22,845 bases of DNA from Candidatus Stramentimicrobium fermentans (lineage in GTDB: Bacteria; Atribacterota; Phoenicimicrobiia; Phoenicimicrobiales; Stramentimicrobiaceae), in the NCBI GenBank assembly GCA_012520575.1, contig JAAYOB010000032.1, forward strand, positions 1 to 22,845, written 5' to 3'. A model generated the notes under the pieces. That model was given only the letters and a program-made list of their open reading frames with translations, did not search any database and had not been told where the DNA came from. A program made the position numbers and the translations under genes. This document shows, piece by piece, positions 5,766 to 20,433 of the stretch (position 1 is the stretch's first letter; every line of letters starts with the position of its first letter).

Positions 5766-6479
5766 GTGAATATTCTGCGTACTATACCCTGGTTGGTCTT
5801 TATTATTTCCATTCCCCTATTACTGATCTCTTCTACCGTTTTCTTGGAAATGAATTATCTGCCATTTTATGAGTATGCCTATCAAAAATATCATATTAGC
5901 GAGGTTACGGAGTTTAGTGATGAACAATTGATGGGGATAACGCGCCATCTGGTGCAATTTTTTAACGATAAAATAGCCAGTCCCCAACTGATGTTAGAAA
6001 ATCAGGGTAAACCGATGTACCTCTTTCACGATTATGAAATAAGACACCTTCAGGACGTTAAAATGCTTTTTCGTTACTCCTTTTACGTGGCACTGGTTAT
6101 GCTTGTCTATGGCGTCGGATATCTGTTATTTACCAGGATGAGTGGAGGAAAAAAGAGGTGGAATTATTTTTGGAGAGGGGTGAGGAATGGTAATATCCTG
6201 ACTCTGGTATTGCTGATTAGCTTGGGCATAGCGATTATAGTCGCTTTCCACAACATTTTTATTAAGTTTCACTATCTGGTTTTTGGAGATCCTCAGAGTT
6301 CACCCTGGATGCTCAATCCCCTAACCGATTATTTAGTCATGATATATCCTCTAAGTTTCTGGCAGGATGCGATAATATTCGGAATAGGGGTGATTGCGGT
6401 AGTGGCCCTGTTGATGAGTTTTATCAGTATAATCGGAGTTAACAGGACTGCCGGCAGGGGCAGGTATTGGGTAGGTTAA
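5766..6479 (+). CDS. TIGR01906/DUF1461-family integral membrane protein
   Basis: This 237-residue protein has an N-terminal membrane helix (about residues 6-27), a polar extracytoplasmic stretch of roughly 70 residues, and three further helices near 97-118, 142-165 and 197-222. This pattern and the segment LNPLTDYLVMIYPLSFWQDA, which resembles the conserved loop before the last helix in TIGR01906/DUF1461 proteins, support the family call. The family's function is unknown. The start is uncertain: the GTG at 5766 overlaps the only Shine-Dalgarno-like run, GAGGTGA (5763-5769). That run would be ideally spaced for a CTG codon at 5775, giving a protein three residues shorter. The next gene begins 24 nt downstream, so the two are probably co-transcribed. 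Confidence 0.75.
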   Translation: MNILRTIPWLVFIISIPLLLISSTVFLEMNYLPFYEYAYQKYHISEVTEFSDEQLMGITRHLVQFFNDKIASPQLMLENQGKPMYLFHDYEIRHLQDVKMLFRYSFYVALVMLVYGVGYLLFTRMSGGKKRWNYFWRGVRNGNILTLVLLISLGIAIIVAFHNIFIKFHYLVFGDPQSSPWMLNPLTDYLVMIYPLSFWQDAIIFGIGVIAVVALLMSFISIIGVNRTAGRGRYWVG

Positions 6480-8417: not shown

Positions 8418-8447
8418 TTGACAAATATTCAATTATTTTAATATAAT
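8418..8447 (+). promoter_or_regulatory. Consensus promoter of the first DUF3798 gene
   Basis: TTGACA (8418-8423) and TATAAT (8442-8447) both match the sigma-70 consensus in all six positions, with an 18-nt spacer. The predicted start near 8454 gives an unusually long leader of about 265 nt. The second paralog has a promoter of the same make-up and spacing. Confidence 0.85.
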
Positions 8448-8720
8448 CAAGTGCGATGAAAGTTATCTTCTAATTATAGATTTGATTTATTTGATAAAAA
8501 TATCATTATTTATGACTGTTCTACCTGAAATAAAAATAACTGAAAATTCATCTTTTTTACTTTCTTTCCTAAATTCCTATTGTTCTTATTTTCAATAGTT
8601 ACCTAGAAAATTACAAACGAGAAGGAGGTGCAACATCAGAAATAGGGTACTCCTATATTAATATCTAACCTTAATTCGCTTGCTAGTCTGATTTTCAAGA
8701 AATAAATTTGGAGGAAAAAT
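8448..8720 (+). other. Long 5' leader of the first DUF3798 gene
   Basis: The leader carries no ORF I can support. It contains a strong Shine-Dalgarno-like AAGGAGGTG (8622-8630) about 90 nt before the real start, with no usable start codon behind it. CTCCT at 8650-8654 can pair with AGGAG at 8623-8627. The true ribosome binding site is GGAGG at 8710-8714. A TTCCTATTGT box near 8574 recurs in the second gene's leader as CTCCTATTGT. No known riboswitch class is recognisable. Confidence 0.45.
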
Positions 8721-8821
8721 ATGAATCATTTTAGAAAAAATATCCTACTCGTTTTAACAGTAGTACTGTTATTGTCAGTAATGGCCTTTTCAGCCTTAGG
8801 ACAAGACAATTGGAAAATAGG
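8700..8821 (+). repeat. 122-nt direct repeat, copy 1 (RBS plus signal peptide)
   Basis: This stretch is identical base for base to 10233-10354. It covers the ribosome binding site, the start codon and codons for the signal peptide and first mature residues. Sequence on both sides differs between the copies. Confidence 0.95.
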
Positions 8822-9848
8822 CATAATGACCAATACCGTTACTCAGAATGAAGAAGAGTACAGGGCAGCTCAAAATGTTCTGGCTAAATATGGGCCCGAG
8901 CATGTTATCCATATGACCTTCCCTGATAAATTTATGGATGAACAGGAGACCTCAATTGCCAATTTGGTAAGTATGGCATCAGATCCTGATATGAAAGTAA
9001 TAATTGTTTGCCAGGCAGTTCCCGGTACCGCTCCGGGTATAGATGCCATTAAAGAGATAAGAGATGACCTACTCTTCATTATAGGGCAACCACAGGAAGA
9101 CCCGCCGGTAATATCTGCTCGAGGCGATCTGGTAATGCAGATGGACGAGATGGGGATGGGTGTAGCAATACCTACGCAGGCAAAAAAACTGGGTGCAGAA
9201 GTGCTGGTTCATTATTCCTTCCCACGACATATGTCCTATCCGCTTTTGTCGGCCAGAAGAGAATTAATGAAGGAAACCTGTGCCGAACTCGGTATAGAAT
9301 TTGTAGATGCCACCGCTCCTGACCCGACCGGCGATGCAGGAATAACAGGTGCTCAGCAGTTTATATTAGAAGACGTTCCCAAACTGGTAGGGAAGTATGG
9401 TGAGGATACCTGCTTCTTCAGTACCAATTGTTCACACCAGATACCATTAATCAGTGCAGTAGTGGAAGCCGGGGCTCTCTATGCTCAACCTTGCTGTCCG
9501 TCTCCCTATCATGGCTTTCCTTCAGCTTTAGGAATTGAAGTTCCCGAGGAAAAAATGGGAGATATAGAGTGGATAATTGAGGAGATTACCGCTGTTTTGG
9601 CGGAAAAAGGTATGACCGGAAGACTATCCACCTGGCCGGTTCCGGTAGCTATGATGTTTATTGAAGCCGGTGCAGAGTATGCCAAGGATTGGATTGATGG
9701 AAAATTCACCGAAAAAGTCAATATTCCTTTACTTAAGGAAAAGTTCTTTGCATACTCCGGTGTTGATGCTGAGCTGGCTATATTGGAAGAGGGCGGCGTT
9801 ACGTATGACAACTACTATGGGATTTTGATAGACCATATTACTTTCTAA
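8721..9848 (+). CDS. DUF3798-type exported solute-binding protein, copy 1
   Basis: A 375-residue exported protein that I recognise as DUF3798-type, a family with a periplasmic-binding-protein-like fold and no established ligand. Residues 1-28 form a signal peptide (basic MNHFRKN, a long hydrophobic core, cleavage after about ALG). There is no lipobox cysteine, so the mature protein should be soluble in a periplasm. The mature part opens with a KIGIMTNTVTQNEEE strand-turn, and carries HYSFPRHM, DPTGDAGITG and the cysteine-rich FFSTNC and QPCCPSPYHGFP segments. Six cysteines are shared with the second copy. GGAGG sits 6 nt before the ATG. It has its own promoter and terminator. With the ABC genes downstream and no other binding protein, a role as receptor of that importer is likely, but inferred. 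The substrate is unknown. Confidence 0.88.
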   Translation: MNHFRKNILLVLTVVLLLSVMAFSALGQDNWKIGIMTNTVTQNEEEYRAAQNVLAKYGPEHVIHMTFPDKFMDEQETSIANLVSMASDPDMKVIIVCQAVPGTAPGIDAIKEIRDDLLFIIGQPQEDPPVISARGDLVMQMDEMGMGVAIPTQAKKLGAEVLVHYSFPRHMSYPLLSARRELMKETCAELGIEFVDATAPDPTGDAGITGAQQFILEDVPKLVGKYGEDTCFFSTNCSHQIPLISAVVEAGALYAQPCCPSPYHGFPSALGIEVPEEKMGDIEWIIEEITAVLAEKGMTGRLSTWPVPVAMMFIEAGAEYAKDWIDGKFTEKVNIPLLKEKFFAYSGVDAELAILEEGGVTYDNYYGILIDHITF

Positions 9849-9891
9849 TCTTTCAAACCGATATGTTTTTAAAACAGAAGTAATCTGATTT

Positions 9892-9926
9892 AAAAGAGGT
9901 AAGGGACAGGAAGCCCTGCCTCTTTT
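9892..9926 (+). terminator. Terminator of the first DUF3798 gene
   Basis: AAAAGAGG (9892-9899) pairs with CCTCTTTT (9919-9926), extended inward by T-G, A-T and GGG/CCC pairs with one bulge. The stem ends in a T-rich arm, as in an intrinsic terminator. Confidence 0.75.
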
Positions 9927-9963
9927 CTTAATAACCTGTATACAGGTTTACTTGTTGAAATCC

Positions 9964-9993
9964 TTGACAAATAATTGCTTATCTGAATATAAT
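9964..9993 (+). promoter_or_regulatory. Consensus promoter of the second DUF3798 gene
   Basis: TTGACA (9964-9969) and TATAAT (9988-9993) are again perfect hexamers with an 18-nt spacer, as for the first copy. The leader to the ATG at 10254 is about 255 nt. Confidence 0.85.
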
Positions 9994-10253
9994 ATGTATT
10001 AGAAGTAAATCATCTATTTCTTCCGAAAAGAAGGATATATAATTATGCCAATCCTTCCTAATCAGAAAATAATTAATTATTCACTTAAAATACTTTCTAC
10101 TATAAACTCCTATTGTATCTTGCTTCCAAGTTTTCCGTACTCTTGAAAATAAAAATTTTAAAGGAGGTGTAATAACAAAAACATTCACCTCAAACTTTCT
10201 TAAGATTAAACTGTTTATACCGACAATCAAAAAAATAAATTTGGAGGAAAAAT
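9994..10253 (+). other. Long 5' leader of the second DUF3798 gene
   Basis: No supported ORF. It repeats the plan of the first leader: a CTCCTATTGT box near 10108, then a Shine-Dalgarno-like AAGGAGGTG (10161-10169) about 85 nt before the start codon. GAGGTG at 10164-10169 can pair with CACCTC at 10186-10191 around a 16-nt loop. The true ribosome binding site lies inside the 122-nt repeat. No known riboswitch is recognisable. Confidence 0.45.
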
Positions 10254-10354
10254 ATGAATCATTTTAGAAAAAATATCCTACTCGTTTTAACAGTAGTACT
10301 GTTATTGTCAGTAATGGCCTTTTCAGCCTTAGGACAAGACAATTGGAAAATAGG
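10233..10354 (+). repeat. 122-nt direct repeat, copy 2 (RBS plus signal peptide)
   Basis: Identical to 8700-8821, offset by 1,533 nt. The identity starts in AT-rich leader sequence just before the ribosome binding site and ends at codon 34 of the gene. Confidence 0.95.
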
Positions 10355-11381
10355 TATTTTGACCAGCACAGTTACTCAAAATGAAGAAGAATTCAGAGCC
10401 GCACAGCATGTTCTGGCTAAATACGGACCGGAACATGTCATTGTCATGACTTACCCGGATAAATTTATGGATGAACAGGAGACTACCATTGCCAATATGG
10501 TTAGTATGGCATCAGATCCGGATGTAAAAGCCTTAATTATCTGCCAGGCAGTTCCGGGAACCTCTCCCGGAATCGATTCTGTAAAAGAGATAAGAGATGA
10601 CCTTCTTATTATAGTGGGAACACCCCATGATGACCCGCCGGTGATTTCACCAAGAGCTGATATAGTTTTAGCAATGGATGATGTTGGGATGGGTTATACC
10701 ATACCGGTGCAGGCCCAAAAATTAGGAGCGCGTACACTGGTTCATTATTCCTTCCCACGACACATGGCTTTCTTAACCCTTTCCACCAGAAGAGATATTA
10801 TGAAGGAAGAATGTGCCCGTCTTGGTTTAGATTTTGTAGAAGCAGATTCTCCGGACCCAACGGGTGATGCCGGCATAACAGGTTCTCAACAATTTATCTT
10901 AGAAGATGTTCCCAGAATGGTGGAAAAATATGGTAAGGACACCTGTTTCTTCAGTACCAACTGCTCACAGCAGATACCGCTAATCAGTGCCATAGTTTCT
11001 ACCGGTGCTCTCTATGCTCAACCTTGCTGTCCGTCTCCCTATCATGGCTTTCCTTCAGCTTTAGGTATTGAAGTATCGGAAGATAAGATGGGCGATCTGC
11101 CCTGGATAATTGAGGAAATTACTAAGGTTATGGCGGAAAAAGGAGTAAGCGGAAGACTATCCACCTGGCCGGCACCGGTAGCTATGATGTTTATTGAAGC
11201 CGGTGCAGAATATGCCAAAGACTGGATTCAAGGAAAATTCACTGAAAAAATGAACATTCCGGTACTCTTGGAAAAACTCAGCGATTATGCCGGTGTTGAC
11301 ATAGATCTTAAAGCCTTTGAGCATGAAGGGGTTACCTACGATAACTTCTTGGTGGTATTACTTGACTACATCACATTCTAA
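10254..11381 (+). CDS. DUF3798-type exported solute-binding protein, copy 2
   Basis: A 375-residue paralog of the preceding gene, colinear with it without insertions or deletions. The signal peptide is identical in DNA and protein. The mature part differs at many sites, especially ligand-region candidates such as the loop after KIGIL, VGTPHDDPPVISPRADI and the C-terminal 40 residues. All six cysteines, HYSFPRHM, DPTGDAGITG and QPCCPSPYHGFP are kept. The divergence with retained framework suggests two receptors with different ligand preference feeding one transporter; this is inference. It has its own promoter and long leader. A 14-bp terminator follows, and the ABC ATPase starts 100 nt after its stop, so the transporter is probably expressed by read-through from here. 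Confidence 0.88.
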   Translation: MNHFRKNILLVLTVVLLLSVMAFSALGQDNWKIGILTSTVTQNEEEFRAAQHVLAKYGPEHVIVMTYPDKFMDEQETTIANMVSMASDPDVKALIICQAVPGTSPGIDSVKEIRDDLLIIVGTPHDDPPVISPRADIVLAMDDVGMGYTIPVQAQKLGARTLVHYSFPRHMAFLTLSTRRDIMKEECARLGLDFVEADSPDPTGDAGITGSQQFILEDVPRMVEKYGKDTCFFSTNCSQQIPLISAIVSTGALYAQPCCPSPYHGFPSALGIEVSEDKMGDLPWIIEEITKVMAEKGVSGRLSTWPAPVAMMFIEAGAEYAKDWIQGKFTEKMNIPVLLEKLSDYAGVDIDLKAFEHEGVTYDNFLVVLLDYITF

Positions 11382-11419
11382 TTTACCGAAACAGTTTACT
11401 TAAAACTAATGACTTCTAA

Positions 11420-11455
11420 AAAAGGTAAGGTTGTCCAAAGTCAACCTTACCTTTT
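11420..11455 (+). terminator. Strong terminator/attenuator between binding protein and ABC genes
   Basis: AAAAGGTAAGGTTG (11420-11433) pairs perfectly over 14 bp with CAACCTTACCTTTT (11442-11455) around an 8-nt loop, with a terminal T run. It lies only 26 nt before the ABC ATPase start, with no room for a separate promoter between, so it should set a lower level of transporter than of binding protein. Confidence 0.85.
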
Positions 11456-11481
11456 AATTAATTTAAGAAGGTGGTACTTGC

Positions 11482-13101
11482 ATGGCTGAAGACTATGTTT
11501 TACAAATGAAGAATATTGATAAGGAATATTATGGCAATAAAGTCCTGAAAGGAGTCAGTCTATCGGTTCGAAAGGGTGAAATCCACGGACTTATCGGAGA
11601 AAATGGTGCCGGAAAGTCAACCCTCATGAATATACTCTTTGGAATGCCGGTTATTCACTCCACGGGAGGCTTTTCCGGTGAAATATATCTCAATGGTGAT
11701 AAGGTAGATCTTAAATCACCCTATGAAGCAATGAAAATGGGTATCGGAATGGTGCACCAGGAGTTTATGCTTATACCGGATTTTACCATTACCGAAAATA
11801 TTAAGCTCAATAGAGAGACTACTCAAGATAATTTAATAAGTAAAGTTTTTAGAAGCGATAGATTAAAAACTCTCAATACCGGTTCCATGGCAGCCGATGC
11901 GAAAAAAGCTCTAAATAGAGTGGGGCTTACTATTGACGAATGGGTGACTGTTGCCGGGCTGCCGGTAGGGCATATGCAATTTATAGAGATTGCCCGTGAA
12001 ATTGATAAGACCGGTCTCAGACTGTTGGTTTTTGATGAACCTACCGCAGTACTGACCGAGAGTGAAGCCGATAATCTTCTTTCTGCCATGAAGAGATTGG
12101 CCGAGTCCGGTATCTCTATTCTTTTTATCACCCATAGGCTGAGTGAAGTTATTCAGATAGCCGATAATATTACCGTTTTAAGGGATGGTGAATTAGTAGC
12201 CGATAGGAAGAGTGCTGAGACAAATGTTGCCGAGCTTGCCGAACTCATGGTAGGCAGAAAAGTTGATTTAAAGGGTAAGGAGAAGCAGTCAAGAGAATAT
12301 CAGGAAAGTGAAGTAATTCTGGATATAAAGAATTTACAGGTGGATATGCCGGGAGAAAAAGTGACGGGGGTAGACCTAAAGATTTACAAGGGGGAAATAT
12401 TCGGTATTGGGGGACTTGCCGGTCAGGGGAAAGTAGGTATTGCCAATGGACTTATGGGATTATACCCCAGCAAGGGCGAAGTTATCTTTAAAGGGGAGAA
12501 GTTGGAACTGAACAATACCAAAAGTTCTCTGGAAAGAGGGCTTGCCTTTGTCTCAGAAGATAGAAGAGGGGTAGGGTTATTATTAGACTCTTCCATTGAG
12601 CTCAATATTGTATTTACCACCATGCAGACTAAAGGTAAATTTTTAAAGAGGTTTGGATTTTTTAGTCAATTAGATGATGCAGGAATCAGAGAGTACGCCG
12701 CTAAAATAATTCAAGACTTAGATATAAGGTGTACCCATTCCCAGCAATTAACCAGGCAGCTCAGCGGGGGAAATCAACAGAAGGTATGTGTGGCCCGAGC
12801 TCTGGCATTGGACCCCGAGACTATCTTGGTATCTGAACCAACCCGTGGAATTGATGTGGGAGCAAAAAAGCTGGTTCTTGACCTATTGATAAAATTAAAT
12901 AAGGAGCTGGGTATGACCATCATAATGACCTCCAGTGAACTGGTAGAGCTCCGTTCTATCTGTAATAGGATAGCCATCATATTTAAGGGCAAAGTTGCCG
13001 GTATTTTAAAAGCCAGTAACAGTGACCAGGAATTCGGCCTTATGATGGCAGGTGAATATCAGAAGATTGAAGAGGATGGGGAGGGCAGACTAAATGAATG
13101 A
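11482..13101 (+). CDS. Two-domain ABC importer ATPase, sugar/nucleoside type
   Basis: A 539-residue cytoplasmic ATPase with two fused nucleotide-binding domains, as in RbsA, MglA and the nucleoside importer ATPase YufO/NupA. Domain 1 has Walker A GENGAGKST (39-47), the signature-like LPVGHMQ (160-166) and Walker B LLVFDEPT with D185/E186. Domain 2 has a degenerate Walker A (GLAGQGKVG), which is usual for this family, then a canonical LSGGNQQKV (from residue 427) and Walker B ILVSEPTRGID. An AAGGTGG site precedes the ATG at 11482. It overlaps the next permease gene by 8 nt, so the products are translationally coupled. It drives the two permeases below. Its substrate must be read from the receptor, which here is probably the DUF3798 pair. 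Confidence 0.93.
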   Translation: MAEDYVLQMKNIDKEYYGNKVLKGVSLSVRKGEIHGLIGENGAGKSTLMNILFGMPVIHSTGGFSGEIYLNGDKVDLKSPYEAMKMGIGMVHQEFMLIPDFTITENIKLNRETTQDNLISKVFRSDRLKTLNTGSMAADAKKALNRVGLTIDEWVTVAGLPVGHMQFIEIAREIDKTGLRLLVFDEPTAVLTESEADNLLSAMKRLAESGISILFITHRLSEVIQIADNITVLRDGELVADRKSAETNVAELAELMVGRKVDLKGKEKQSREYQESEVILDIKNLQVDMPGEKVTGVDLKIYKGEIFGIGGLAGQGKVGIANGLMGLYPSKGEVIFKGEKLELNNTKSSLERGLAFVSEDRRGVGLLLDSSIELNIVFTTMQTKGKFLKRFGFFSQLDDAGIREYAAKIIQDLDIRCTHSQQLTRQLSGGNQQKVCVARALALDPETILVSEPTRGIDVGAKKLVLDLLIKLNKELGMTIIMTSSELVELRSICNRIAIIFKGKVAGILKASNSDQEFGLMMAGEYQKIEEDGEGRLNE

Positions 13102-14143
13102 AACAATTAATAATATCGTAAAGAGAATTGGACTTCCCAGATTGATAATCGGTCTACTCTTTCTAGCCACTTGCTTAACGGCGGTGATGATTGACCTCCC
13201 ATTCGGTTTAATAGTCTCCGATATACTCAGAAGATTCGGCATGTTTGGAGTGCTTTCTCTCGCTATGGTACCGGCTATACAATGCGGTACCGGACCCAAT
13301 TTTGCCTTACCGATAGGTATCATCTGTGGAATATTGGGCACCCTAATCGCCATTGAATTCAATTTAACATCCCCGCTTTTAGGCTATGGTTTTATTTCCG
13401 CCATAATTATCTCCTTACCTTTTGCTGTATTATCGGGCTGGCTGTATGGTCTCTTGCTCAATAAAATAAAAGGGTCTGAAATGCTGGTGGCTACCTATAC
13501 CGGATTTTCTATCGTCTCTTTTATGCAGATTGCCTGGGTAACTTTACCCTTTAAACATCCGGAGATGAGATGGCCTATTGGGATAGGATTAAGGGTTACA
13601 GTATCTTTAGCTTCTACTTTCGGAGAGGTACTCAATAAATTATGGGGCTTTTCTATCGGTAAAGTGTATTTTCCGACCGGTCTTATACTATTCTTTTTGG
13701 CTTGTTGTGCTGTGGTCTGGGTTTATTCTAGAACCAAAGCAGGTATCGAGATGAGCGCAGCCGGAGCTAACCCAAAATTTGCTGCTGCCTCGGGTATCAA
13801 TGTGGACAAGAATAGGATTATTGGTACTATTTTATCTACTTTTCTCGGTGCGGTTGGAGTTATAGTCTATTCACTCAGTTTTGGTTTTTTACAATTATAT
13901 TTAGCGCCTCTCTATATGGCATTTCCGGCCGTAGCAGCCGTATTGATAGGGGGAGCTTCAACATCTAAAATAAAGATTTCACATGTTATAATAGGAACTT
14001 TCTTATTTCAAGGGCTCTTAACTGTGGCTATGCCGGTGGCGAATGAATTGGTACCGGAAGGGAATCTGTCGGAAATGCTAAGAGTGATTGTGCAGAACGG
14101 CATAATACTCTATGCCCTTACCAGGATAGGGGGTGAGTCATAA
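13094..14143 (+). CDS. ABC importer permease, BPD_transp_2 family, subunit 1
   Basis: A 349-residue inner-membrane protein with about eight to ten hydrophobic segments. The ABC-contact loop is visible as AGANPKFAAASGINVDKNR, the version found in sugar and nucleoside importer permeases. The sequence GGASTSKIKISH near the end of the conserved region also fits the family. Its start overlaps the ATPase end, with GGGGAGGG (13079-13086) as ribosome binding site. The gene directly abuts the second permease. Two different permeases with one double ATPase is the arrangement of BmpA-type nucleoside importers, whereas ribose-type systems use one permease twice. Confidence 0.92.
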   Translation: MNETINNIVKRIGLPRLIIGLLFLATCLTAVMIDLPFGLIVSDILRRFGMFGVLSLAMVPAIQCGTGPNFALPIGIICGILGTLIAIEFNLTSPLLGYGFISAIIISLPFAVLSGWLYGLLLNKIKGSEMLVATYTGFSIVSFMQIAWVTLPFKHPEMRWPIGIGLRVTVSLASTFGEVLNKLWGFSIGKVYFPTGLILFFLACCAVVWVYSRTKAGIEMSAAGANPKFAAASGINVDKNRIIGTILSTFLGAVGVIVYSLSFGFLQLYLAPLYMAFPAVAAVLIGGASTSKIKISHVIIGTFLFQGLLTVAMPVANELVPEGNLSEMLRVIVQNGIILYALTRIGGES

Positions 14144-15451
14144 ATGGCAGAGCCAAATCAAACTAAAACAACCCAAATAAGTCTAAGCACTAAGATTAAA
14201 AGACTGGCATTTGACAATAGTGTTCCTATCTTGTTTATTATAATCTGTTTATTAGGGGTATACTTTTCACAATTACCTGCAGTATTTATAGTTAATCAGC
14301 TTTTAACCAGAATAACCAGAAATTCCTTTTTAGTCCTGGCACTGGTTATCCCGGTAATCGCCGGCTTGGGTCTTAACTTTGGCATTGTAATTGGGGCAAT
14401 GGCAGGACAATTTGCTATTTTAATAGTAACTCATTATAAAGTTGCCGGTTTTAATGGTTTTATGTTGAGTCTACTGTTATCTACCCCTATAGCTATTCTT
14501 TTTGGAATATTGACTGCCATGCTACTCAATAGAACTAAAGGACAGGAGATGATAACCAGTATGATTGCCGGATTTTTTGCCAATGGGGTTTATCAATTCA
14601 TACTCCTTTTTTTAGTGGGAACATTAATTCCTATGAAAAACCCCGATATGATATTGAGTAGAGGAATCGGAATCAGAAATACTATAGACCTCGCTACTAA
14701 AACAGGGATAAAATATGCTCTTGATGATGTACTGAAGTATCCTTTTTTTGAGGTTCTCGTGGTTGCGGCAATAGTGGGAATAATAGCACTGAGTATAAAT
14801 TATTTTCTAAAAAAGAAAAAGGGCAGCGGAGAAGTTGATAATTTTAAATTTGTTACCCTGTTTATCCTTATGGCTCTAGTTATGGGAACAAGTATCTGGG
14901 TTCTCAATTCCAACACACTTCTAAAAACAGTGAAACTGCCCATTGTAACAGTTTTATTTATTACCGTTATTTGGGTTTTCAATGAATTGATCATGAAGAC
15001 CAAGTTAGGGCAGGATTTCAGAACTATTGGGCATGATATGGAAATTGCCAAAATATCGGGAATAAATGTGGATAAAACCAGAACCATTGCCATGATTATT
15101 TCTACCGTTCTGGCAGCTTGGGGGCAGATTATTTTCCTGCAGAATATCGGAACACTCTCCACCTATGGAGCCCATGTACAAATCGCTACCTTCTCCATTG
15201 CTTCCATACTTCTAGGAGGGGCTTCCGTTACCAAAGCTACCAGCGGTCAAGCCATTATAGGACTCATTCTGTTTCACACTCTATTTATAGTATCACCGAA
15301 AGCGGGAAATAATCTTTTTGGAGATGCCCAGATTGGAGAATTCTTTAGAGCTTTTATTTCCTATGGGGTAATCGGGGTGGCTTTAGGACTGCATGCTTGG
15401 AACAAAAGGGTTCAAGCCATGAGAAAACATCTTGATACCGATGCCCCTTAG
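14144..15451 (+). CDS. ABC importer permease, BPD_transp_2 family, subunit 2
   Basis: A 435-residue permease whose ATG follows the TAA of subunit 1 without any gap. It has the same coupling loop, IGHDMEIAKISGINVDKTR, and a conserved GGASVTKATSGQA segment near the end. It is about 85 residues longer than subunit 1. The extra length lies mainly near residues 185-270, where an FLKKKKGSGEVDNF linker and added hydrophobic segments occur. It should pair with subunit 1 as the heterodimeric channel. The conserved SGINVDK in both subunits suggests they arose from one ancestor. Confidence 0.9.
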   Translation: MAEPNQTKTTQISLSTKIKRLAFDNSVPILFIIICLLGVYFSQLPAVFIVNQLLTRITRNSFLVLALVIPVIAGLGLNFGIVIGAMAGQFAILIVTHYKVAGFNGFMLSLLLSTPIAILFGILTAMLLNRTKGQEMITSMIAGFFANGVYQFILLFLVGTLIPMKNPDMILSRGIGIRNTIDLATKTGIKYALDDVLKYPFFEVLVVAAIVGIIALSINYFLKKKKGSGEVDNFKFVTLFILMALVMGTSIWVLNSNTLLKTVKLPIVTVLFITVIWVFNELIMKTKLGQDFRTIGHDMEIAKISGINVDKTRTIAMIISTVLAAWGQIIFLQNIGTLSTYGAHVQIATFSIASILLGGASVTKATSGQAIIGLILFHTLFIVSPKAGNNLFGDAQIGEFFRAFISYGVIGVALGLHAWNKRVQAMRKHLDTDAP

Positions 15452-15522
15452 CTTTGATAGCATGATATACCGAAATGACGAGAAGAAATATAAATATAAA
15501 CAAAAAAGAAGCAGGGATAAAA

Positions 15523-16620
15523 ATGCTTAACAAAAAATATGCTGATAAACTCCGAAAATTAATGAAAAAAAATAATATCGATGCCTTTATTATTGGACCC
15601 TCAGATGATTTAAATTATTTAACCGGTTTTAATGTACATGTCTGTGAAAGGCTTCAGGCCTTCTTCTTTTTGGCGGATGGTAATTATTTCCATATCTCGC
15701 CAAAAATGTATTTGGAAGAAGCGGAAAAGAATCTGGGGCCGGATACCGACTTTTTCGTCTGGGAAGATAGTGAAAATGTCTTAGATATTATTAAAACAGC
15801 CTATCAAAAATACCTTCTCTCAGGGAAAACTATTGCCATTAATAATGCCATAAGAGGAATAGACCTGATTGATATCAGTAACCGACTGCCGGGTGAATAT
15901 GTAAACGGGCATGAGATACTGGAATTATTGAGAATCAGAAAAGATAAAGAAGAAATTGAGAAGATGCAGAAAGCTGCCCATTTAGCCGATGAGGCGGTGG
16001 AGGCGGCTATAAAATATATAGCACCGGGTATGACCGAAAAAGATATTAAAGAGAAAATCATGGAGTTTTTTGAGCAAAAGGGGACTTGTCTTTCTTTTAC
16101 CCCCATAGTTGCTTCCGGTCCCAACAGTTCCATGCCTCACTATTGTGATGATTCCCGGGTAATTCAGGAAAAAGACATCATTATTATGGATTTGGGCTGT
16201 CAATATGAGAGCTACTGTTCTGATATTACCAGAACTGTCTTTGTAGGAGGAATTAACGCGGAAGAAGAAAAAGTATACAATACCGTTTTGGCGGCTAATA
16301 AGGCCGGTGAGGCAAAGGTGGGCATAGGAGTCAGCGCAGAGGAAGTGGACATAGCTGCCAGAGAAGTAATTGTCAAAGCGGGCTATGGTGAATATTTCCT
16401 GACCAGAACCGGGCATGGAATTGGGGTAAGCGTACATGAGGCACCCTATATCAGAACAGGCAATAAACAGATACTGGAAGAGGGGATGGCTTTCAGTGTG
16501 GAGCCGGGAATCTACATAAAGGATAAATTTGGTGTACGTATTGAAGATATTGTTGTAGTGGCAGAATACGGTGCTAATGTACTGAACAAATGTTCCAAAG
16601 AGATTACTATTATTAAATAA
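15523..16620 (+). CDS. M24-family metallopeptidase (Xaa-Pro aminopeptidase/prolidase-like)
   Basis: A 365-residue cytoplasmic enzyme of the pita-bread fold, which in prolidases and Xaa-Pro aminopeptidases cuts the bond before proline; related enzymes include creatinase, which acts on C-N bonds of small molecules. All five metal ligands are visible: D223 and D234 in DLGCQYESYCSDITRT, H298 in GHGIG, E327 in EPGIY and E341 in RIEDIV. The N-terminal creatinase-like domain begins around residue 10. The ATG at 15523, after GCAGGG, gives the usual family start; the frame stays open back to 15475 but that extension is lysine/asparagine-rich filler. It lies 71 nt after the second permease with no terminator between, so it is probably in the same transcript and may act on the imported compound. 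Confidence 0.9.
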   Translation: MLNKKYADKLRKLMKKNNIDAFIIGPSDDLNYLTGFNVHVCERLQAFFFLADGNYFHISPKMYLEEAEKNLGPDTDFFVWEDSENVLDIIKTAYQKYLLSGKTIAINNAIRGIDLIDISNRLPGEYVNGHEILELLRIRKDKEEIEKMQKAAHLADEAVEAAIKYIAPGMTEKDIKEKIMEFFEQKGTCLSFTPIVASGPNSSMPHYCDDSRVIQEKDIIIMDLGCQYESYCSDITRTVFVGGINAEEEKVYNTVLAANKAGEAKVGIGVSAEEVDIAAREVIVKAGYGEYFLTRTGHGIGVSVHEAPYIRTGNKQILEEGMAFSVEPGIYIKDKFGVRIEDIVVVAEYGANVLNKCSKEITIIK

Positions 16621-18906: not shown

Positions 18907-19773
18907 TTAAATAGCTGTCAACCTGTCCGTTATTTGCCTGAAGAATTCTGAACTCCAAGCATCCAAAACGGAAGTGTCGTGTATAAACGGCTCAACATCC
19001 CGTCTGGCCTGTACATAATCAATGCTGTCAAAGCGTTCTGCCAGCATCTTTTTTGTCTCATTCAGAGAACAGTCTGCATCAGCGGTAATGTACTTGGAGT
19101 CAATGAGTCGTTCCCGGAGGTGCTTTTGATTAACTGCTGCACCTCTTGAAAGATAAAAGATATAATCATAAAGATCTCTGCCTTTGATACGACTCTGCCA
19201 CGCACGACAGATGACTGCATGAATTTTCCCGGCAAACAGAGAGGGCATATCGTACATTTTCACCTCATAGGGCACCGGCAGCAGCCGATATTTGTGCTCA
19301 AATGTAGCATAGGCCGGGGGATTGACATCCACTTCAAACTTTATTCTTACGGTCTCATGTCTGGACACACTTCCCGCAACCTTCTCATCGGCATAGAACA
19401 ACAAAAGGTGCTCTTTCGTGCTCCCTTTCAGAAAAGCGGAACGGATCGTGCTTTCTTTCGTTTTTGCTTTCTCCTGAATTTCCACGTTCAGGCCAAACGA
19501 TTTCACTTCCTTCTCCAGCACAGGGAAATAGGAGCCTAAGTCAAAATCCAATTCTTCGGCCTCCAGTGAAAAATCCAAATCTTCCGAGAAGCGATCAAGA
19601 CCATAGAAGATCCTCAAAGCTGTCCCGCCGTAGAAGGCTGCCTTCTTAAAGAACCCGGCACGAGACAAACCACACAGTACGATTTCCTGCATGATCTCCT
19701 TCATGGCATTTTTCCTGTCATAGATATTTTCTACATGGTAGCTTTTCAGCATCTGTTCAATGACTGCGCTCAT
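18907..19773 (-). CDS. abiEii: AbiEii/AbiGii-family nucleotidyltransferase toxin
   Basis: Toxin half of a type IV AbiE system; such proteins are nucleotidyltransferases that halt growth, giving abortive infection against phages, and some target tRNA. The 288 residues carry the substrate and metal motifs GGTALRIFYG and DRFSEDLDFSL in the first third, and the later conserved KIHAVICRAW...KGRDLYD segment. The length fits the family. Its ATG lies one base after the stop of the antitoxin gene, so the two are translationally coupled. Codon use is richer in G and C than in the genes left of 18,567, which suggests transfer. It looks intact although its surroundings are decayed. Confidence 0.92.
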   Translation of the reverse strand: MSAVIEQMLKSYHVENIYDRKNAMKEIMQEIVLCGLSRAGFFKKAAFYGGTALRIFYGLDRFSEDLDFSLEAEELDFDLGSYFPVLEKEVKSFGLNVEIQEKAKTKESTIRSAFLKGSTKEHLLLFYADEKVAGSVSRHETVRIKFEVDVNPPAYATFEHKYRLLPVPYEVKMYDMPSLFAGKIHAVICRAWQSRIKGRDLYDYIFYLSRGAAVNQKHLRERLIDSKYITADADCSLNETKKMLAERFDSIDYVQARRDVEPFIHDTSVLDAWSSEFFRQITDRLTAI

Positions 19774-19774
19774 A

Positions 19775-20356
19775 TCATATTCTCCTTAAAAGCGAGCAGA
19801 GCTTCTTGATGTTCGTGGTGCGATACGCTTCACTGTACTCACAGACCTTATCTGCATCCAGCTTTTTCAGTTCAGCTTCCTCAATCCGTAAATCTTCCGT
19901 TAGAAGCTGCATGAGCTTCTTTATGTTTGGAACGGGAGAAATCGTATAAAGCTGGTCGCACAGCGCCTTTTCCGGTTCGGCAATCCGATAGAAATAGTCT
20001 CCCTCCTGAATCAATCTGATCCCTAACGGAAACGCCTCTGACGGCACGTCCCGATAAGTGAATGTCCCGAAGGATGTTTCATACTTCTTTTTCTTTTTCT
20101 TTTCAAAGGTAGCGCAGGTAACAGTATATACCGCTTCGGGAATCAGTCCATAATAGCCTAAGGCATATTCAAAAGAAATGTATGACGGACCATAAATACT
20201 GCCTGCAAGCAGATGGGCTGGCACATTTGGGTCGGTTTCATAGAGTCCTCTTGTAATAGGAAAGCATTCGCCACGCTCTACCATGCGCGAGAGCTTTGAC
20301 TTTGGAGATCCATATTCGTTTAATTCTTCTAAGAGCATTGCTGTTGTCTTTATCAT
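19775..20356 (-). CDS. abiEi: AbiEi-family antitoxin and transcriptional regulator
   Basis: Partner of the AbiEii toxin; AbiEi proteins have an N-terminal winged-helix DNA-binding domain that represses the operon and a C-terminal antitoxin domain. The 193-residue product shows the N-terminal helix pair with SKLSRMVERGECFPITRGLYET, then YISFEYALGYYGLIPEAVY and TCATFEKKKKKKY, characteristic of the family. The start was set at 20356 because GAGGTG (complement of 20362-20367) lies at ideal distance; the frame stays open 10 codons further upstream without such a site. A run of six lysines is encoded by an A-rich tract prone to slippage. It directly precedes the toxin gene with a 1-nt gap. Confidence 0.9.
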   Translation of the reverse strand: MIKTTAMLLEELNEYGSPKSKLSRMVERGECFPITRGLYETDPNVPAHLLAGSIYGPSYISFEYALGYYGLIPEAVYTVTCATFEKKKKKKYETSFGTFTYRDVPSEAFPLGIRLIQEGDYFYRIAEPEKALCDQLYTISPVPNIKKLMQLLTEDLRIEEAELKKLDADKVCEYSEAYRTTNIKKLCSLLRRI

Positions 20357-20433
20357 ATTTTCACCTCGCAGTCTCATTATATGCAACTATCCGGTGAAAA
20401 TCAAGTAGTTTTGAAAAAGAATTTGCCGCCAAA

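Follow-up and report, generated by a model that had tools for sequence, protein, structure and literature searches.

Among the closest described relatives of the locus analysed here are the Bmp/PnrA-NupABC transporters, with which it shares a single fused ATPase, a pair of different BPD_transp_2 permeases and an exported receptor of the type I fold. Further likenesses exist to the CUT2 sugar importers Rbs, Xyl and Mgl and to the AI-2 importer Lsr, namely in the best-scoring ATPase models, in weak permease scores and in the fold of the receptor (LsrB, ribose-binding protein). With the Dpp/Opp peptide importers the locus has the proposed substrate class and the association with peptidases in common, and we know of no transporter of the present ATPase/permease type that imports peptides. 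The receptor family of the locus, DUF3798 (PF12683), is still named a domain of unknown function in Pfam, and a 2022 survey placed it among 45 solute-binding Pfam families (PMC9602780). Its only solved homologue, 3QI7 from Clostridioides difficile 630, is a structural genomics entry with the name putative transcriptional regulator, for which no citing paper was found in the literature searched. A literature search by the family name DUF3798 returned nothing on function, and the literature searched on Synergistetes, on Atribacteria transporters and on peptide ABC transporters with a type I receptor contained nothing about the present system. The original prediction had called the importer possibly undescribed, which stands in so far as no ligand, operon or peptidase link of DUF3798 was found in the literature searched, but needs qualification in that PF12683 was already on the list of 2022.

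The window, that is the whole stretch of 22,845 nucleotides that was analysed, belongs to an Atribacterota genome of 1.58 Mb and carries a set of six genes on its plus strand. Two DUF3798 receptor genes (8721..9848 and 10254..11381) encode proteins of 375 amino acids each with 77% identity, which match PF12683 over the full length with 385.6 and 375.4 bits, respectively, at a cut-off of 24.6; receptor 1 has a Sec-type signal sequence that contains no lipobox cysteine. They are followed by an ABC ATPase (11482..13101, 539 amino acids) in which two nucleotide-binding domains are fused and ABC_tran was matched in two stretches, and by two BPD_transp_2 permeases, of which permease A (13094..14143, 349 amino acids) shares 8 bases with the ATPase gene and permease B (14144..15451, 435 amino acids) directly abuts permease A. 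The last gene encodes a prolidase-like, probably cytoplasmic M24 metallopeptidase (15523..16620, 365 amino acids; Peptidase_M24 with 236 bits and Creatinase_N). The first in-frame ATG of this open reading frame is located at 15475, and 15523 is considered the likelier start because most Atribacterota relatives comprise 365-366 amino acids. The six genes, their order and their location on a single strand, as originally predicted, were borne out by the open reading frames and by Pfam matches to all six products, and since the same order recurs across phyla, it is not a product of chance. The cassette is flanked by the chromosomal genes murD, acyl-ACP thioesterase and tadA, which are also found around the cassette in the congeneric locus L013. 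Elsewhere in the window, an AbiEii-type nucleotidyltransferase (PF08843) and its upstream partner of 203 amino acids (18907-20386, minus strand) are likely to form a type IV toxin-antitoxin pair, and a membrane protein (5766-6479) that matches TIGR01906 above the cut-off and the Pfam Lit family adjoins an unnamed membrane protein of 118 amino acids.

The M24 gene had also been assumed to close the transcript, which is plausible from the gene spacing; however, transcription is probably not uniform, since both receptor genes are preceded by a promoter-like site of their own and a hairpin precedes the transporter genes. The sites TTGACA-18-TATAAT upstream of receptor gene 1 (8418..8447, plus strand) and receptor gene 2 (9964..9993, plus strand) both show 12 of 12 consensus bases, and a site of the same kind as the first is present in L013. 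The hairpin of 14 pairs (11420..11455, plus strand), located between the receptor genes and the transporter genes, is by its sequence a possible attenuator or mRNA stabiliser. Both promoter-like sites and the hairpin are consistent with an excess of receptor over transporter, as is usual in such import systems. An Rfam match to Termite-leu on the reverse strand at the hairpin, with 27.9 bits at a cut-off of 51, was taken as chance; no match at gathering scores was obtained in the Rfam scan of the receptor and leader region, and no T-box motif was found 5' of the cassette across 83 loci. In the Atribacterota copies, a perfect AAGGAGGT is located 93-114 bases 5' of the receptor start (window ~8620 and 10161; L013, L021 and L025), and it occurs in 8 of 160 receptor upstream regions from all phyla compared to 5 of 1693 for other genes. 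Ribosome-binding sequences that stabilise mRNA are known from Bacillus, and by analogy AAGGAGGT may be such a sequence. The two receptor genes of a genome are 100% identical over the signal-peptide codons and the ribosome-binding site, yet these blocks differ between genomes (copies compared: window 8721-8850 and 10254-10380; L013 14025-15152 and 12172-13299), a pattern that resembles gene conversion among the copies.

An AlphaFold model of receptor 1, built from an alignment of 92 sequences, reached a mean pLDDT of 94.8. Its best structural match is 3QI7 (Z 40.9, 345 residues, 23% identity), and the next are LsrB (AI-2), sugar-binding proteins including ribose-binding protein, and branched-chain amino acid (LivJ) proteins with Z values of 15-18 over 255-292 residues. 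Because the model matches LsrB, sugar and LivJ proteins, the DUF3798 receptor is predicted to have a type I solute-binding-protein fold, and because these matches span sugars, AI-2 and amino acids, the fold is silent on the ligand.

DUF3798 loci were sampled by a collection search, which yielded 80 loci and is biased to the close relatives of the window, and by family searches, which are free of that bias and from whose matches a part of the Synergistota was examined at the locus level. The family searches found DUF3798 in 127 of the 149 Synergistota, in 31 of the 291 genomes sampled from one Clostridia class, in 16 of the 198 Spirochaetota and in 7 of the 50 Atribacterota. The removal of near-copies left 140 dereplicated loci with an ATPase beside the receptor in 115 (82%), 113 of them also with a permease and 2 with the ATPase only, and with no ABC genes in 25. 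The order receptor, ATPase, permease A and permease B is nearly constant across the loci, and the phyla that possess the cassette include Atribacterota, Bacillota, Synergistota, Spirochaetota and Chloroflexota. Some loci contain multiple receptors, with a maximum of five in tandem (L097), and orphan receptors exist as well, some of them in genomes that hold a cassette elsewhere; Anaerosolibacter, for example, has three copies. This linkage, common rather than confined to a minority of the loci, supports the original view of the DUF3798 proteins, and we regard it as almost certain that they are receptors of a dedicated ABC importer. In contrast, it is highly improbable that they are mainly sensors, i.e., abundant lipoproteins that signal the status of a ligand with transport as a secondary matter. 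The 25 loci whose receptor has no ABC genes next to it, among them those of distant tandem lipoproteins that adjoin asparagine synthetase and hpt genes, and the name of the 3QI7 entry would agree with sensing; the ATPase is nevertheless directly downstream in 82%, the proteins have signals for export but lack a DNA-binding domain, and orphan receptors in genomes with a cassette elsewhere are expected if several receptors share one transporter.

Several loci differ from the window in gene content. DUF6672 proteins (PF20377), which are absent from the window, are encoded directly 3' of permease B in Synergistota, Spirochaetota and the Atribacterota locus L015; they are small, have a single domain, look membrane-anchored (L015 6541-6921; L144 15119-15514; L164 13965-14369) and are probably an accessory part of the transporter. 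GntR/FCD regulators, which could be ligand-responsive, adjoin several cassettes (L015 418-1098, L023 401-1066, L070 15368-16033). At the loci L137-L141, tandem lipoproteins that are distant members of DUF3798 (50-130 bits) are encoded amid conserved housekeeping genes, and ABC genes are absent.

The fused ATPase and the two different BPD_transp_2 permeases confirm the BmpA/NupABC-type plan that had been recognised in the window. The ATPase has a Walker A motif in the N-terminal half only and the LSGGNQ signature in the C-terminal half only; its best curated models are those of xylose, GguA and ribose transport with 387-350 bits, the top score being 387.5 at a cut-off of 699, and the permeases score 24-31 bits with the curated sugar-system models, which have cut-offs of 363-500. 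The statement that the usual binding protein is absent turned out to be true of the locus but not of the genome, which encodes a Bmp protein on contig C49 beside an ATPase and a BPD_transp_2-like permease of its own, and this location argues against the protein being a separate classical binding protein of the window transporter. The window ATPase is 35% identical to the Bmp ATPase of C49, the window permeases share 26-35% identity with the Bmp permease of the genome over short stretches only, and the window receptors have neither a sequence match to the Bmp protein of the genome nor a Bmp Pfam match. Bmp proteins were also found in 44 of 45 other DUF3798 genomes checked. Since a complete Bmp-type transporter is present elsewhere in this genome and Bmp proteins in nearly all the others, the DUF3798 system is not a nucleoside transporter devoid of its receptor.

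The cassettes were also surveyed for peptidase genes in their vicinity, and the link to M24 anticipated from the window proved to be real, recurrent and specific. Of the 320 genes that lie no more than two positions from a cassette, 33 encode M24, M20 or C15 peptidases, as opposed to 2 of 475 distal genes, defined as those at a distance of at least four positions (Fisher p 8e-12), although the genes cannot be treated as independent, since neighbourhoods are shared among relatives. M24 alone accounts for 22 of 320 near and 1 of 475 distal genes. As the M20 and C15 seeds had been picked after being seen as neighbours, a control with Bmp cassettes and an open Pfam tally, both independent of that selection, were added. 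Near 40 Bmp cassettes taken from genomes with DUF3798, 3 of 145 genes belong to the three families, all of them M20 (p 8e-4 compared to 33 of 320), and none of the 145 is M24. In the open tally, M24 (13) and M20 (5) are the top catalytic families among 125 adjacent genes, and both are outside the top 25 among 125 distal genes. Sugar or nucleoside families are not over-represented among the 125 adjacent genes, which speaks for the earlier proposal of a substrate that is neither a nucleoside nor a sugar. In the high-G+C loci, the choice of open reading frames is imperfect, and in some of those from Synergistota spurious long antisense frames mask genes, so that the neighbour counts there are lower bounds. 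Intact cassettes without a peptidase within two genes make up 63 of the 97 scored (about two thirds), which counts against peptides as the ligand, as does the position of many cassettes among housekeeping genes (infC-rplT, gyrA, thrS). Such neighbours, likewise gyrB and dnaN, were rejected as a signal, being explained by the shared synteny of related Clostridia.

These data bear on the possibility that the system imports a nucleoside, a vitamin or a sugar by means of a divergent receptor on a Bmp- or sugar-type transporter, and that the peptidases reflect a loose clustering of salvage genes. We consider this quite unlikely: the ATPase and the permeases do have that architecture, and deoC-like and dihydrofolate reductase genes, recognised by sequence reading or Pfam, adjoin single cassettes, but nearly all DUF3798 genomes checked already possess Bmp proteins, the permeases show little identity to the Bmp permease of the genome, sugar and nucleoside families are inconspicuous among the 125 neighbours, and the Bmp cassettes lack M24 neighbours.

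On a tree of the ATPases, the M24 label requires 11 changes, at least 9 of them forced by well-supported branches, so that the linkage to M24 was gained or lost many times. The linked M24 proteins form a main clade that includes that of the window, a second one found among Oscillospiraceae-like bacteria and a third one among Synergistota; the other creatinase-like M24 protein of the genome is outside the linked clades. In L015, the receptor and the ATPase are only 39% and 54% identical to those of the window, yet the M24 protein falls into the Atribacterota clade of the window (64%), and in L055, L149 and L162 the receptor adjoins an M24 gene without ABC genes. In other loci, neighbours of different families passed curated cut-offs: the M20 neighbours of L058 and L129 are the dipeptidase PepV (541.5 at a cut-off of 435), a neighbour of L051 is the tripeptidase PepT (656 at 255), and the C15 neighbour of L079 is pyroglutamyl-peptidase I. 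Together with the lack of sugar or nucleoside enrichment, these neighbours narrow the inferred substrate to short peptides.

The window M24 protein has the characteristics of an M24B prolidase or aminopeptidase P, namely the Peptidase_M24 domain, the five metal ligands that had been predicted (D223, D234, H298, E327 and E341) and two accessory histidines of the prolidase type (H206 and H305; numbering of the 365-residue protein). Its best PDB matches are Xaa-Pro aminopeptidases or dipeptidases (E 1e-69), and its score with the PepQ model NF040821 (198.6) is below the cut-off of 630. The M24 family also includes creatinase, ectoine hydrolase and DMSP lyase. The ectoine hydrolase models are matched weakly, with 118 bits at a cut-off of 575, and no creatinase is among the matches to curated models and the PDB; by sequence, the protein is closer to Xaa-Pro dipeptidases than to ectoine hydrolases. 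Of the original suggestion of a compound with a peptide- or creatine-like C-N bond, the peptide side is retained as the likelier one and narrowed to di- and tripeptides. It is possible, though unlikely, that the same importer takes up a single non-peptide nitrogen compound, such as an imino acid, a betaine or a creatine-, ectoine- or hydroxyproline-like molecule, with M24 as its specialised hydrolase or lyase. The creatinase-type and ectoine-hydrolase enzymes within M24 and the weak ectoine hydrolase match leave room for such a ligand, as does Sedimentibacter locus L070, where the cassette is followed by a GntR/FCD regulator, a Lar_N protein and an AcnX (aconitase X) gene; it would nevertheless leave PepV, PepT and pyroglutamyl-peptidase at other cassettes unexplained, and the nearest solved M24 relatives are Xaa-Pro dipeptidases and aminopeptidases. 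Generic peptidases can also adjoin transporters of other nitrogen compounds, which counts against peptides as the substrate. No export signal was seen on the window M24 protein, and the M24, M20 and C15 families are normally cytoplasmic; for both reasons, the peptidases would act after uptake.

We therefore favour the view that the system is an ABC importer dedicated to very short peptides, and to this view as a whole we assign a probability of roughly 55%. It is based on the observed gene order, which is conserved, on the fold predicted for the receptor, on a peptidase link that is specific, and on the co-occurrence with an independent Bmp transporter. The exported DUF3798 protein would bind the ligand on the outer side of the inner membrane and hand it to the fused two-domain ATPase and a heterodimer of the two BPD_transp_2 permeases for import, two steps that follow from family knowledge and conservation. 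Judging from the neighbouring genes, the chances are somewhat better than even that the ligand is a di- or tripeptide cut in the cytoplasm, where M24 would act on it, replaced in other loci by M20 PepV, PepT or C15 pyroglutamyl-peptidase. The released amino acids would then be fermented, as the linkage and the lifestyle of the Synergistota suggest; according to PMC12366334, members of this phylum ferment amino acids. The data thus describe a conserved uptake system of amino-acid-fermenting anaerobes, whose pairing with dipeptide-cutting enzymes suggests very short peptides. At even odds, DUF3798 receptors on a sugar/nucleoside-type ABC transporter with a linked cytoplasmic dipeptidase constitute an unrecognised class of short-peptide importers, which would be one of the main ways of obtaining nutrients for the Synergistota (85% of the genomes sampled) as well as for many Clostridia and Atribacterota that ferment amino acids. 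DUF3798 is near-universal in the sampled Synergistota and frequent in amino-acid-fermenting Clostridia, and the question of its ligand is now directly testable, given a defined transporter, a linked peptidase and the cultured carriers Geosporobacter, Sedimentibacter, Maledivibacter and Anaerosolibacter. If the ligand is a peptide, this would bear on the feeding of deep-subsurface Atribacterota.

A peptide ligand would also make the system the first peptide importer of the sugar/nucleoside ABC type known to us, and it can be told apart from each of its described relatives. In contrast to the Bmp/PnrA-NupABC transporters, which have PF02608 receptors, the window receptors belong to PF12683, and M24 neighbours were not found near Bmp cassettes. 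It differs from the CUT2 and Lsr importers in that it misses all curated cut-offs widely, has two different permease genes and lacks sugar-processing neighbours. From the Dpp/Opp importers it is distinguished by unrelated receptor and permease families, SBP_bac_5 and BPD_transp_1 not being among the Pfam matches of the window.
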